NCBI GenBank assembly: GCA_038831005.1 | Contig: JAWBKZ010000003.1 | Location: forward strand, 62,001-126,000 | Direction: 5' to 3' | From: Ignisphaera sp. | GTDB taxonomy: Archaea > Thermoproteota > Thermoprotei_A > Sulfolobales > Ignisphaeraceae | DNA: 64,000 bases | Part shown: positions 9,069 to 43,407 of the stretch, one piece after another | Position numbering within the stretch: position 1 is the first letter of the stretch | Layout: each line of letters opens with the position of its first letter | Made by a program: the position numbers and the translations under genes | The notes under the pieces: generated by a model | The model's input: only the letters and a program-made list of their open reading frames with translations | The model's database searches: none | Told to the model about the DNA's origin: nothing

Positions 9069-10033
9069 GGAGGCTCGACCTTAGATAGAACATCATCGAT
9101 AACATCCTTAGCTGTTATCCCCGAAATCCTCGCTTCGCCACGAAGAATCAATCTATGTGAGAGAGCTGCATAAGCTACGTATTTTACGTCGTCGGGAATC
9201 ACATAGTCTCTCATTCTGATTAACGCTATCGATTTAGATAGTGTGTATAACGCTATAGCACCTCTTGGTGATGCCCCTAGTTTTACCATTGGGTGACGTC
9301 TGGTCATCTCAATTATAGATGCTGTATACTTCTTAATGTTTATATCAACATAAATCTTTTTAACGGTATTAATTAGCATGAGAACGTCCTTCAATCCTAG
9401 AGACGGTATGATATCGCTTACGTCGACTACCTCATAGTATCTGTTAAGTATTTCAACAGTTTCTTCAGCTGTTGGATACCCTATTTCAATTTTAGATAAA
9501 AATCTATCTACTTGCGCTTCCGATAATGGGAATGTACCTTCAATCTCAATAGGATTCATGGTTGCTATAACCAGAAATGGTTGTGGGAGTTTATAGGTAA
9601 TACCTTCAATTGTTACTTGTTTTTCCTGCATAGCTTCAAGTAGGGCGCTCTGTGTTTTTGGAGGAGCTCTATTTATTTCGTCAACAAAGAGTATATTCGT
9701 GAAAATGGGACCCTTTCTAAACACAAATTGACCTGTTTTAACATCATATATCTGAGTTCCCAAGATATCTGAAGGCAGGAGATCTGGTGTAGCTTGAACT
9801 CGCTTAAAATCTAGGCCAAAAACCAAAGCTACAGTTTTGGCCATAAGTGTTTTAGCTACCCCTGGAACACCCTCCAAAAGCACATGTCCTTCAGCCAAAA
9901 GAGTTGCTAATATTAATTCTAGCTCTTTCCTTTTTCCAACAACCTTCTTCTGTGCTTGATCTAAAGCTTTAGCAACAAGTTCTCCGCACTTCTTCACATC
10001 GATTTCTATTACTTCTCTATACTCTTTATCCAT
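9065..10033 (-). CDS. MoxR-family AAA+ ATPase
   Basis: Encodes 322 residues. Walker A is GVPGVAKT (near residue 56), Walker B is ILFVDEINRAPP with the following QSALLEAMQE segment, sensor 1 is VIATMNPIEIEGTFPLSEAQVDRF, and sensor 2 lies in GASPRGAIAL. This is the typical MoxR proper layout. It is thought to act as a chaperone-like ATPase for its DUF58 partner, whose gene follows directly and overlaps it by 4 bases. Its own start overlaps the end of the upstream DUF4350-like gene, so the set is one operon. Confidence 0.93.
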   Translation of the reverse strand: MDKEYREVIEIDVKKCGELVAKALDQAQKKVVGKRKELELILATLLAEGHVLLEGVPGVAKTLMAKTVALVFGLDFKRVQATPDLLPSDILGTQIYDVKTGQFVFRKGPIFTNILFVDEINRAPPKTQSALLEAMQEKQVTIEGITYKLPQPFLVIATMNPIEIEGTFPLSEAQVDRFLSKIEIGYPTAEETVEILNRYYEVVDVSDIIPSLGLKDVLMLINTVKKIYVDINIKKYTASIIEMTRRHPMVKLGASPRGAIALYTLSKSIALIRMRDYVIPDDVKYVAYAALSHRLILRGEARISGITAKDVIDDVLSKVEPP

Positions 10034-26253: not shown

Positions 26254-26694
26254 TTAATACACCATGTTATTACATTCAACGTTACACTCTCCATACTTCT
26301 TCATCAACTCTATAACATGTACACCATTACCTAAAAAATCTGCCTTCTTGATTATGTGAAAATCATTTCCGGTATACATCACTACACCTATGGGTCCACC
26401 TACTTTTTTCACGATCCATGGATAGAGAGTTACAGGAACAACAACATACAGGTAATCGGCTATATGAATCCTTTTACTAAGCTGATCAATAAGCATTATT
26501 TTAGGTCTCGTCTTTATCTCGTATACATGAATTAAAGGCCTATCTATGGCAGGTTCTACAGCCAGAACATCTATTTCTATTCCATCTAACCTTATATTAC
26601 CATAAATCTTATATCCAAGACCACAAAGCTTATCTATGAACAATCTTGCAATAACTTCTTCATTCAACCTGAATTTATTCAGCTTCAGCACCAC
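26254..26694 (-). CDS. PD-(D/E)XK nuclease-like protein
   Basis: Encodes 146 residues. The restriction-endonuclease core is readable: a leading helix with Glu 12/13 (NEEVIARLF), IEIDVLAVE with Asp 42, and VYEIKTR with Glu 59 and Lys 61, giving D-x16-E-x-K. A following helix and strand (LYVVVPVTLYP) complete a minimal fold similar to archaeal Holliday-junction or RecB-like nucleases. The metal site looks intact. The substrate is unknown. It lies alone, on the opposite strand from its neighbours. Confidence 0.65.
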   Translation of the reverse strand: MVLKLNKFRLNEEVIARLFIDKLCGLGYKIYGNIRLDGIEIDVLAVEPAIDRPLIHVYEIKTRPKIMLIDQLSKRIHIADYLYVVVPVTLYPWIVKKVGGPIGVVMYTGNDFHIIKKADFLGNGVHVIELMKKYGECNVECNNMVY

Positions 26695-26903
26695 AAAGAA
26701 CGAAGGTTATTCAGAATTAAATGTCACACAGTTAAAACAAACTAGAACTTGTTAACATTTAAAATATTCATTTATAAACATACACTAGATAATACCTATG
26801 GAAAGAAACGATCAAAGTAAACTGAGTATTACTTGGCTCAAACCTAGTAAATTATGACTCACAACCTTATTATATTAGGAGGTAGCAATATTAAGTATGG
26901 GCC

Positions 26904-27053
26904 AGACCTGCTGTATGTAGTGGTTTGATGTTGACTAGATAGATGTATACTACCAGGTGAACCCACCTCAAGGGTGGTAAAGCCCTAGGGGTAGGTTTAT
27001 CTGGTGGCATACATCTATCTAATCAACATCAAACCACTACATACAGTGGGGCT
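26904..27053. repeat. 150-base, almost continuously paired hairpin
   Basis: The left half (26904-26973) pairs with the right half (26982-27053) along about 70 positions. The best-matched arms are 26911-26948 and 27009-27046, with one mismatch in 38. Pairing continues inward through ACCAG/CTGGT (26952-26956 with 27001-27005) to AGGG/CCCT around an 8-base loop. The few mismatches are C/A or A/G, one A is bulged near 26986, and at least six positions are G-T, which pair as G-U in RNA. This argues for selection on an RNA fold. A MITE-like element is the main alternative; I see no target-site duplication. It contains no reading frame. Confidence 0.8.
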
Positions 27054-27150
27054 ACACAGTCGTTTAGTGTTTTTGTACCTTTCTATATATGATATATTAT
27101 CAACTAGCTTGTTACTGATATCATGGTTCATGGTAGTAAGGTAGTTATTC

Positions 27151-28222: not shown

Positions 28223-29500
28223 GTGAGTACTAAGGTGATGGTGCATAACGCTGTGAATAAGAAGCTCCATAGATTAATTGACCTAAATGAAGCTATAGCT
28301 AAAATGTCTAGAGAGATAATTATAGAATTATCTAGCGAATGTATAGATGTTGTTAATGCACTACTTCGTTTATCTTCAAGAGATATTGTTGCTGAGTATC
28401 CTCTGCCCTTTGTTGATAGAAGTGTTGTTGATGGATATGCTGTTAAAGCTGAAGACACTTATGGTGCTTCAGAGCACAACCCTATAGCTTTAAGGATTGT
28501 TGGAGAGGCCACATTCACTACATTCAATAAAATCTCTATAGGTTCTGGAGAAGCTGTCAAGATATATACAGGTGTTCCTCTACCTTCAGGAGCAAATGCT
28601 GTAGTCATGCTTGAGGATGCTATAGAGAGTGGAGATATTGTCTACATTATGAAAAGTGTTAATGTTTATGCAAATGTTGCTATACGTGGTGAAGATATAG
28701 CTCTAGGAAGAGTTATAGTTAGGAAGGGACATGTTATAGAGCCTAAACATATAGCTGCTCTAGTTGCGCTCGGTATCAGTAAGCTAGAGGTGTATGAAAA
28801 AATTCGTGTCTGTATAGTGTCTACAGGTGATGAAGTTGTAGAGATAGGATCTATTGATGCTGAAACAGTTCATTCTAAAGGACTTGTATTTAATTCTACA
28901 GCGTTTCTGCTTAAAAGTTACATGGATATGTTGAACTTCTTTGAACCCATGTATATAGGTATAGCGAAGGACTCTCGACATGAAATTGTATCAGCATTAG
29001 AAAAGAGTGTCAAGTTGTGTCATGTAGTTATAGTTACTGGTGGTGCTGGTCCTTCAGCCCATGATCTATCAATCGAAAGTATTGAAAGTATAGGTGGTAA
29101 ATTGGTAGTACGGGGTATATCTATGAGGCCTGGAAGACCTACTAGTGCTGGTGTTGTTAATGGAAAGCCTGTTTTTATGCTCTCAGGATTTCCGGTAGCA
29201 GCATTTTTTGGCTTTAAGTTCTTCGTATTACCGGTAATAGAGAGAGTCCTCGGTATTGTTGTACCTAGACGACGTATTTATGCTAAATTAACTAAACGTA
29301 TTGCTAATATAGCTGGATATACAACCTTTACTAGAGTTAAATTAACTAAGTGTGGTAATGAGTTTTGTGCAGAGCCTCTAGCTTCTATGGGTTCAGGTAT
29401 GATTTCATCATTGTTGGATAGTGATGGTGTGGTAGTTGTTCCATCTAATCTAGAGGGTTTTGATGAGGGTCAATATGTTGATGTAGAATTGATTTATTAG
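28223..29500 (+). CDS. moeA: Molybdopterin molybdenumtransferase MoeA
   Basis: Encodes 425 residues. Motifs include PLPFVDRSVVDGYAVKAEDTYGA, VKIYTGVPLPSGANAVVMLED, RGEDI, VCIVSTGDEVVE, TGGAGPSAHD and LSGFPVAAFFGF, covering MoeA domains I to IV. The enzyme inserts molybdate or tungstate into adenylated molybdopterin. The TGG(T/A)(S)xG loop reads TGGAGPSAHD, a small variation from TGGTSxGxxD that also occurs in the next gene's canonical form. The start is GTG at 28223 with no clear ribosome binding site, so it may be leaderless. A second moeA follows after 11 bases, as is common in archaea. Confidence 0.92.
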   Translation: MSTKVMVHNAVNKKLHRLIDLNEAIAKMSREIIIELSSECIDVVNALLRLSSRDIVAEYPLPFVDRSVVDGYAVKAEDTYGASEHNPIALRIVGEATFTTFNKISIGSGEAVKIYTGVPLPSGANAVVMLEDAIESGDIVYIMKSVNVYANVAIRGEDIALGRVIVRKGHVIEPKHIAALVALGISKLEVYEKIRVCIVSTGDEVVEIGSIDAETVHSKGLVFNSTAFLLKSYMDMLNFFEPMYIGIAKDSRHEIVSALEKSVKLCHVVIVTGGAGPSAHDLSIESIESIGGKLVVRGISMRPGRPTSAGVVNGKPVFMLSGFPVAAFFGFKFFVLPVIERVLGIVVPRRRIYAKLTKRIANIAGYTTFTRVKLTKCGNEFCAEPLASMGSGMISSLLDSDGVVVVPSNLEGFDEGQYVDVELIY

Positions 29501-29511
29501 GTGGGATAGTT

Positions 29512-31461
29512 ATGAGGAGGTTATTCCATAAGCTGGTTTCTCTCAACGAAGCTATTGAAATAATTGAACATAATGTATCGCTTTCACCACGAGGAATAGA
29601 GCAAGTCAATATCCTAGACTCTTTGGGACGTGTACTTGCAGTTGACGTGTATGCCTCTATTGATTACCCGCCATTTGATAGATCTGAAGTTGATGGATAT
29701 GCTGTTAAAGCTGAAGACACCTATGGTGCATATGAGTCTAGACCAGTAAGGCTACAGATTATAGGTTCTTTAAAGGTTGGTGAAATACCTCAGTACAATG
29801 TTGCAAGATTCAAGGCAGTAGAAATAGCTACAGGAGCTGCTATACCTAGAGGATGCAATTCTGTTGTTATGGAGGAATACACATCTAGAGAAAATGATTA
29901 TGTGTATATCTATAGAGCGGCATCACCTCTAGAGAATGTGGCTATAGCAGGTAGCGATATATCTCGTGGCGAACTTGTTCTAATGAAGGGAACTAGGATA
30001 ACACCTTTCGATATAGGGATACTTGCTGCATTAGGTTACAGTAGTATAGATGTTTATCTAAAACCACGTATAGCCGTAATATCGACAGGTAATGAAATTG
30101 CTGAACCGGGGCAACATCTTAGATATGGACAAGTCTATGATTATAATGGATTTGCTGTAACATCATACTTAAGATCTATAGGTGCTGATGCTTATTACCT
30201 TGGCATTGTGCCTGATGATAGAGAAATTCTGAAAAGTATAGTGACTAAGGCTCTAGAGGAATACGATATGATTATAACTTCTGGAGGTACTTCAGCAGGT
30301 ATTGATGATGTTGTGTACCGCGTCATCGAAGATGTTGGTACTATCTTGGTCCATGGACTAGAGGTTAAACCTGGTAAGCCGACAGTTATAGGTGTTTCTA
30401 GAGGCAAAATTATTATGGGGCTGCCAGGATTTCCATTTTCTGCAATATCAGTATCTATAACTCTTCTACGCTATATTGTTGAAAAACTTAGTGGAATAGA
30501 GTCACCAAATATCTATAGCAATCTGAAAGCTAGAATGACACAGAGGATACGTAAGGATGCTGGTAAAACCCTCTATATACCTATAGCTATAGCTAGACGC
30601 AATTCAGATTATATAGCTATACCAATTCCATATCGTTCAGGAAGTATTACACCAATAATTAGAGCTGATGGTGTAGCTATTGTAGGTAGGGGTATAGAAA
30701 TTGTAGAGGAAGGAGAAGAAGTCGATATCGTTATGTTTAATCCAGTATATAGAGAAGCAGTATTCATAGGAAGTCATGATGTGATCTTACCATTACTGAT
30801 TAAACATGCAAACATTATGAATAGAGTCAAGCTACTGTATGTAGGTTCTCTAGCAGGTCTTATTCATGTAGCTAAAGGTTATGGCGATATAGCACCCATA
30901 CATCTTCTACATCCAGAATCAAAAGAATACAACCTACCTTACGTAATGCAGTACAAGGATCTTGTACTTCTATCTGGATACAGAAGAAGGCTTGTAATAG
31001 CTTTTCAGCGCGGCAATCCTAAAGGTATTAAAAGTGTTAGAGATTTCATTAGAAGCGATATAAGGATTGTTAATAGAAACCAAGGATCTGGAACAAGAAC
31101 TATACTAGATATAATGCTCAAGGAGTTGGCAAAAGAACTGGGAATCTCTTTCGAAAATCTTATAAAAAAGATAGATGGTTATACATATGAAGTTACTAGC
31201 CATACAGGAGTAGCTGCAGCAATAGCGCAAGGAAGAGCTGATGTAGGGATATGTGTAGAGTATGCAGCCATACTCTACAATCTAGACTATATGCCGCTGA
31301 CTTGGGAAGAATACGATTTCGCTATACATAGAGATAGTCTAGATGAACCGGTTATAACGAAATTCATCGAGTTCCTCAAAACTGGAAAAACACTAGAGAT
31401 ACTGAAGTCTATACCGGGGTACGATGTTAAGAGTAATATAGGTGAAATAGTTTATGGATAG
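29512..31461 (+). CDS. moeA: MoeA fused to a periplasmic-binding-protein-like domain
   Basis: Encodes 649 residues. Residues 1 to about 405 are a complete MoeA with PPFDRSEVDGYAVKAEDTYGA, IATGAAIPRG, IAVISTGNEIAE, TSGGTSAGIDD and GLPGFPFSAISV. Residues about 420-645 form a PBP-like domain (FIGSHDVILPLLI, RNQGSGTRTILDIML, GVAAAIAQGRADVGICVEYAA) of the ModA-like/LysR-substrate type. This fusion is known in archaea and may sense or deliver the oxyanion. It forms an operon with the upstream moeA. ATG at 29512, TAGTTATGAGG region upstream. Confidence 0.93.
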   Translation: MRRLFHKLVSLNEAIEIIEHNVSLSPRGIEQVNILDSLGRVLAVDVYASIDYPPFDRSEVDGYAVKAEDTYGAYESRPVRLQIIGSLKVGEIPQYNVARFKAVEIATGAAIPRGCNSVVMEEYTSRENDYVYIYRAASPLENVAIAGSDISRGELVLMKGTRITPFDIGILAALGYSSIDVYLKPRIAVISTGNEIAEPGQHLRYGQVYDYNGFAVTSYLRSIGADAYYLGIVPDDREILKSIVTKALEEYDMIITSGGTSAGIDDVVYRVIEDVGTILVHGLEVKPGKPTVIGVSRGKIIMGLPGFPFSAISVSITLLRYIVEKLSGIESPNIYSNLKARMTQRIRKDAGKTLYIPIAIARRNSDYIAIPIPYRSGSITPIIRADGVAIVGRGIEIVEEGEEVDIVMFNPVYREAVFIGSHDVILPLLIKHANIMNRVKLLYVGSLAGLIHVAKGYGDIAPIHLLHPESKEYNLPYVMQYKDLVLLSGYRRRLVIAFQRGNPKGIKSVRDFIRSDIRIVNRNQGSGTRTILDIMLKELAKELGISFENLIKKIDGYTYEVTSHTGVAAAIAQGRADVGICVEYAAILYNLDYMPLTWEEYDFAIHRDSLDEPVITKFIEFLKTGKTLEILKSIPGYDVKSNIGEIVYG

Positions 31462-43307: not shown

Positions 43308-43407
43308 GCCGCGGTAGTATAGCCCGGTCAAGTATGCGGGCCTCTCGAGCCCGTGACACTAAATCAAAGTGCGGGAAACCCGGGTTCAAATCCCGGCCGC
43401 GGCACCA
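43308..43407 (+). tRNA. tRNA-Glu (anticodon CUC) with 22-base intron in the variable region
   Basis: Acceptor GCCGCGG/CCGCGGC, anticodon stem CGGGC/GCCCG around loop CTCTCGA (anticodon 43344-43346), T-arm CCGGGTTCAAATCCCGG, discriminator A and encoded CCA. Between the anticodon stem and T stem there are 26 bases instead of about 4. CCCG (43350-43353) pairs with CGGG (43372-43375) as a 4-bp central helix. It is flanked by 3-base bulges TGA and AAA and an inner CACT/AGTG helix, giving a relaxed bulge-helix-bulge. Cutting at TG^A and AA^A removes 43356-43377 and restores a normal GTGACCCGGG variable loop (position 45/46). Confidence 0.95.

Follow-up and report, generated by a model that had tools for sequence, protein, structure and literature searches.

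The archaeal tRNA-splicing endonuclease EndA is known to act on tRNA, rRNA, SRP RNA and a few mRNAs. Circular RNAs processed at bulge-helix-bulge (BHB) motifs include tRNA and rRNA introns, pre-rRNA processing stems and the permuted circular SRP RNA of Thermoproteus (PMC4731332). Heteromeric EndA acts on BHBs outside tRNAs and RtcB circularises the product (PMC4731332, PMC7714728), and in crenarchaea the cut falls between bulge residues 2 and 3 (PMC2738675). Small proteins of nuclease type are combined with structured RNAs in type III toxin-antitoxin systems (ToxIN, CptIN, TenpIN), and IS200/IS605 TnpB-omega-RNA loci express circular isoforms in archaea (PMC12558985). Here we describe a hairpin RNA locus and an adjoining gene for a PD-(D/E)XK protein, F6, in the window, a 64,000-nucleotide stretch of the Ignisphaera sp. 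contig JAWBKZ010000003.1, which together look like an undescribed enzyme-plus-circular-RNA system.

The hairpin shares with BHB-processed circular RNAs the 4-bp helix, the two 3-nt bulges and their polarity at the helix base, and EndA and RtcB genes are likewise present in the window's genome. Different from these RNAs, it neither encloses nor restores a tRNA, rRNA, SRP RNA or mRNA, and the predicted excised piece makes up the conserved RNA in its entirety; this near-perfect hairpin has a nuclease gene linked to it. The resemblance to type III toxin-antitoxins makes an RNA inhibitor plausible, but F6 has a PD-(D/E)XK fold rather than that of ToxN, a single long hairpin that includes a BHB takes the place of toxin-cut tandem pseudoknot repeats, and the two genes are probably transcribed separately; neither a ToxN-like toxin nor a direct-repeat array was found at the locus. 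As at IS200/IS605 loci, an archaeal nuclease gene adjoins a structured non-coding RNA; however, TnpA, TnpB and element ends are absent, the nuclease fold differs and no guide matches were found. The fold and D...ExK motif of F6 are those of the small PD-(D/E)XK proteins SPO1766/3dnx, XisH, UPF0102/YraN, sce7726, archaeal Hjc and NucS, yet no curated family reached its cut-off for F6 (Pfam, NCBIfam and PADLOC models). To our knowledge, none of these proteins pairs with an RNA hairpin gene. The features of the locus are as follows.

26254..26694, minus strand: F6, PD-(D/E)XK nuclease-fold protein of 146 aa with a GTG start, from structure prediction and homologues
26826..26832, no strand assigned: upstream palindromic motif GTATTAC (GTAWTAC; consensus GGTAWTACC), common to the two genes of the proposed module
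26867..26877, plus strand: TATA-like box CTTATTATATT, ~29 nt 5' of the BHB, from sequence inspection
26898..26899, plus strand: 5' strand (UG) of the BHB outer helix h, with its partner CA at 27057..27058, plus strand
26900..26903, plus strand: 5' strand (GGCC) of the BHB central helix H, with its 3' strand GGCU at 27050..27053, plus strand
26904..26906, plus strand: 5' bulge of the BHB, 3 nt, AGA, with a predicted EndA cut between 26905 and 26906
26906..27055, plus strand: predicted excised and circularised RNA of 150 nt, a rod of ~65 bp whose apical loop is conserved
26966..26991, plus strand: conserved apex CCUCAAGGGUGGUAAAGCCCUAGGGG; the apices of relatives are AAGGGUNNUAAAGCCCUU and variants
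27054..27056, plus strand: 3' bulge of the BHB, 3 nt, ACA, with a predicted EndA cut between 27055 and 27056

The first-pass annotation had described a near-perfect 150-base hairpin with no gene inside. Both points hold: the inverted repeat (26904-26974 / 26983-27053) has arms of 71 nt with 85% complementarity and an 8-nt spacer, the segment 26880-27080 of the window folds at -116.8 kcal/mol (z = -13.4; 0 of 200 shuffles equally stable), and the hairpin contains no ORF of ≥50 aa. Below the apex, the mismatches between the arms are of the G-U type in six cases and the A-C type in three, with no transversions, in agreement with the early description of G-T or C/A departures. The boundaries given by the BHB, ~26898 to 27058, lie slightly beyond the 26904-27053 originally drawn. 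Hairpins that reach an equal score threshold occur outside the family at 2 per 550 kb of examined DNA. The genome was checked for further copies as the annotation had advised, and none was found: the 150-base hairpin occurs once in 1.70 Mb, which, together with stem sequences that are not conserved between species, speaks against its being a MITE. Contig C2 has a weak match of 20 nt, which was discarded as a further copy, having no hairpin. Rfam returned nothing at the gathering threshold and only microRNA-like and snoRNA-like noise below it, and a K-turn or T-loop, judged by eye, did not fit the base and apex. The TATA-like box would set the RNA start near the hairpin base, and similar boxes lie near -30 in several relatives; this assignment is ambiguous, as an AT-rich peak near -10 blurs the call.

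An archaeal BHB of the hBHBh' type, with a 4-bp central helix and two 3-nt bulges, is present at the base of the hairpin at all 20 loci, and its polarity is the one that EndA needs, the 5' bulge being inner, the 3' bulge outer, and the two on opposite strands. The earlier suggestion of an RNA-processing substrate thus gains a specific endonuclease motif. All members follow the pattern 5'-GG-NGCC-[3 nt]-stem-GGCN-[3 nt]-CC-3' or a paired variant of it, for example CGCC[AGC]...GGCG[AGA] in family f7, UGCC/GGCA in genome G110, AGCC/GGCU in G115, GGCC/GGCC in G118, UACC/GGUA in G138 and GGCC[AGA]...GGCU[ACA] in the window. In a gapless alignment of the 19 distinct sequences, helix H is 100% paired and never broken, with its first pair varying among C-G, G·U, U-A, A-U and G-C. 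The short outer helix h is the weakest part of the motif (79% paired in the same 19 sequences), and h' in the window has only two pairs at its start, followed by a bulge. Over the whole motif, 91.5% of cells are paired compared with 72.7% in shuffles, and the covariation score is 0.565 versus 0.192 in shuffles (0 of 500 reach it) and at most 0.206 in slid versions, all for motifs located by a finder that was anchored on GCC/GGC letters and hence not letter-blind. The crenarchaeal cut rule (PMC2738675) gives an excised RNA of 150 nt here and of 97-160 nt in relatives. ARAGORN found no tRNA in any of the 20 joined leader and trailer flanks, unlike what a tRNA intron would leave. Separately, a tRNA-Glu(CTC) gene of 100 nt in the window (43308-43407, plus strand) could hold an intron, in which case the same genome would use BHB splicing for tRNA.

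As a BLAST query, the hairpin matched other genomes by its apex alone, in two genomes of the same genus; on reading, both sites proved to be full hairpins that share base and apex and differ in stem sequence. Hairpins of this kind were found in 20 genomes of the order, belonging to two families (f1 and f7), each time with an F6 homologue adjoining. Conversely, a search of the order with F6 yielded 21 homologues (E<1e-13), 20 of which are accompanied by a long hairpin at most a few hundred nucleotides away, the exception being a divergent protein in G119. Distant F6-like proteins in G119 (locus L172) and G167 (L173) have no hairpin nearby, and may possibly be forms that precede gain of the RNA or follow its loss. 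Searches with the apex and base gave no hairpin apart from F6, genomes G112 and G114 lack both F6 and hairpin, and strong F6 matches in a profile search of 229 genomes of the class were limited to f1 and f7. Isolated apex-like matches in other genomes were rejected as members, there being no hairpin at these sites. A covariance model built from two members (R1) recovered the other four Ignisphaera copies at the loci examined; as a genome search it missed known copies, and its negatives carry no weight.

The neighbourhoods of hairpin and F6 are of at least five kinds and have nothing else in common. Their layout differs as well: the hairpin lies upstream of F6 and divergent from it in f1, downstream, convergent and overlapping the F6 3' end in genus g47 of f7, and upstream on the same strand as F6 in G128, G138 and G139. 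At the g47 loci L165 (G130), L164, L166, L167, L168 and L169, the 3' arm of the hairpin runs antisense over the C-terminal codons of F6 (...GSRPL), and the BHB strand and the F6 protein sequence therefore constrain each other. The first-pass annotation had offered the hairpin as a leader of the archaemetzincin gene and mentioned the minus-strand PD-(D/E)XK gene only in passing. The relatives reverse this emphasis: the hairpin is convergent with the archaemetzincin 3' end in G113, G115 and G118, lies on another contig in G111, and is missing from archaemetzincin loci without F6. On G111 and the synteny table, archaemetzincin was dropped as a partner, the constant neighbour being F6.

The AlphaFold2 model of F6 has a mean pLDDT of 89.1, and its Foldseek matches are PD-(D/E)XK proteins, 3dnx being the best (E 2.7e-5), followed by PaqCI, XisH and NucS. 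Residues E40, D42, E59, K61, Q71, R75, D80, P87 and G124 are invariant in 16 F6 homologues. Judging from the modelled core fold and the D...(D/E)xK residues, F6 is a member of the PD-(D/E)XK superfamily, with a predicted nuclease activity. No viral relatives of F6 were found in IMG/VR. Weak F6 matches at loci L118, L119 and L122 are longer proteins with coiled-coil-like N-termini, a related PD-(D/E)XK domain and no linked hairpin.

Between species the stem sequences are largely unrelated and the pairing is kept. To compare the arms, the 5' arm of each hairpin was aligned to the reverse complement of its 3' arm under a strand-blind scheme. On the BHB strand, differences of the G·U type outnumber those of the A·C type by 133 to 41 (p=1.5e-12), which points to selection on an RNA of known orientation; the BHB strand also folds better than its complement in 19 of 20 cases, the opposite strand being the better one in G138. 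The F6 genes of G116 and G117 agree at 541 of 558 DNA positions (97%); between the hairpins of these two sister genomes, five stem pairs are changed on both sides, two on one side and none is broken. The arms in relatives thus show compensatory changes rather than random stem-breaking substitutions, and with the strand asymmetry they bear out the long structured RNA that had been suspected from the single sequence. The lower stem, perfectly Watson-Crick over 12-47 bp in many members, is the fastest-changing part, and the upper stem holds the conserved apex together with most of the G·U pairs. Template switching at the DNA level could account in part for clustered double changes, and the strand bias indicates that RNA selection acts also.

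A palindromic motif, GTAWTAC (usually GGTAWTACC), occurs within 150 nt upstream of 19 of the 20 hairpins and 18 of the 20 F6 genes (background rate, 0.126 per kb), the two counts being not fully independent since hairpin and F6 share one intergenic region in f1. A regulator common to both genes might use it as an operator, or F6 itself might read it. With at most one mismatch, GGTAWTACC occurs 24 times in the window (for example at 9596-9604), compared with 11.5 expected, and a wider regulon may exist.

On the computed structure, strand, BHB, linkage, joint absence and shared upstream motif, we propose that the hairpin RNA and F6 form one two-component module, in which the RNA would be excised, circularised and act with F6; we give this reading slightly better than even chances. 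A standalone plus-strand RNA gene, with what may be its own promoter, would yield a short precursor transcript, folded as a long rod. EndA would then cut both 3-nt bulges of the basal BHB and RtcB would join the ends of the released 150-nt piece, giving a closed RNA dumbbell whose ~65-bp duplex is capped by the conserved loop at the apex and a short loop at the base, and which would act together with F6. Because the stem sequence is almost free, with duplex length, pairing, apex and base conserved, F6 may read the RNA as a duplex shape; and since the F6 active site is kept too, we favour shape-based binding that restrains the nuclease. Most likely, the RNA would be a tightly bound, antitoxin-like ligand that checks an otherwise harmful nuclease, both toxicity and RNA binding being putative; a cofactor directing F6, the main alternative within the module model, is less likely. 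More tentatively, and at somewhat below even chances, the pair may represent an undescribed archaeal two-component class. Here the tRNA-splicing enzymes would produce a covalently closed RNA dumbbell, double-stranded throughout, and a standalone PD-(D/E)XK nuclease would have this dumbbell as its dedicated ligand, whether as inhibitor, sensor or cofactor; such a pair might serve in defence or addiction, responding when EndA/RtcB function or the RNA is lost.

Other readings account for parts of these data. Some archaeal BHB introns carry homing nucleases, and F6 might likewise spread the locus as a mobile or homing element, with the BHB letting the inserted hairpin splice out of host transcripts. 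Such mobility would agree with the several genomic places of the module and with the empty homologous place in G114 and G111. We nevertheless consider it unlikely: all searches gave one copy per genome, the F6 gene lies outside the hairpin, leader and trailer contain no conserved host gene and form no tRNA when joined, no terminal repeats emerged, nor, on an unsystematic look, did target duplications, and the conserved apex and perfect variable stem are left unexplained. A housekeeping role for the hairpin as a circular RNA of its own, with F6 a mere neighbour, would suit its own promoter-like sequence and processing signal, and also the varying gene order (divergent in f1, mostly convergent in f7), but it is a rather improbable account of a linkage that survives rearranged order and five contexts, of apex and base searches that turned up no F6-free hairpin, and of GTAWTAC upstream of both genes.

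The hypervariable lower stem between conserved apex and base is what would be expected of a guide leading F6 to matching nucleic acid. Yet the arms of the 20 hairpins had convincing matches at their own loci only (214 genomes; phage records), two stems had no exact match in IMG/VR, and no guide matching foreign or target DNA was found within the collections searched; moreover, a duplex of ~45-65 bp would sequester the guide, and no acquisition machinery is linked. We regard this possibility as remote. Equally remote is a function at the DNA level, in which F6 recognises or cuts a palindrome or cruciform whose arms are kept alike by template switching. Some PD-(D/E)XK enzymes resolve junctions, and the perfect lower stems and clustered G116/G117 changes are as arm-to-arm copying would give them; however, DNA palindromes are strand-neutral, while the arm differences favour one strand, and that strand is the one with the correctly polarised BHB. 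Part of the likeness between the arms may nonetheless come from template switching.

In the module that we prefer, each part is of a known kind; their combination, in which a standalone PD-(D/E)XK gene accompanies a dedicated gene for a rod RNA that a BHB would release, matched no Rfam family, and no paper on it was found in the part of the literature covered. If the reading is true, it describes a gene family whose excised piece is apparently the product, tied to one nuclease in two archaeal families, and an archaeal circular RNA would gain a specific protein partner. A nuclease controlled by an RNA duplex would join protein-RNA modules such as the type III toxin-antitoxins, and the processing would let stable RNA dumbbells be made inside cells.

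Elsewhere in the window, two MoeA-like genes stand in tandem on the plus strand (28223-29500 and 29512-31461) and share a 62-nt stretch that is 87% identical; the second has, by eye, a C-terminal periplasmic-binding-like domain.
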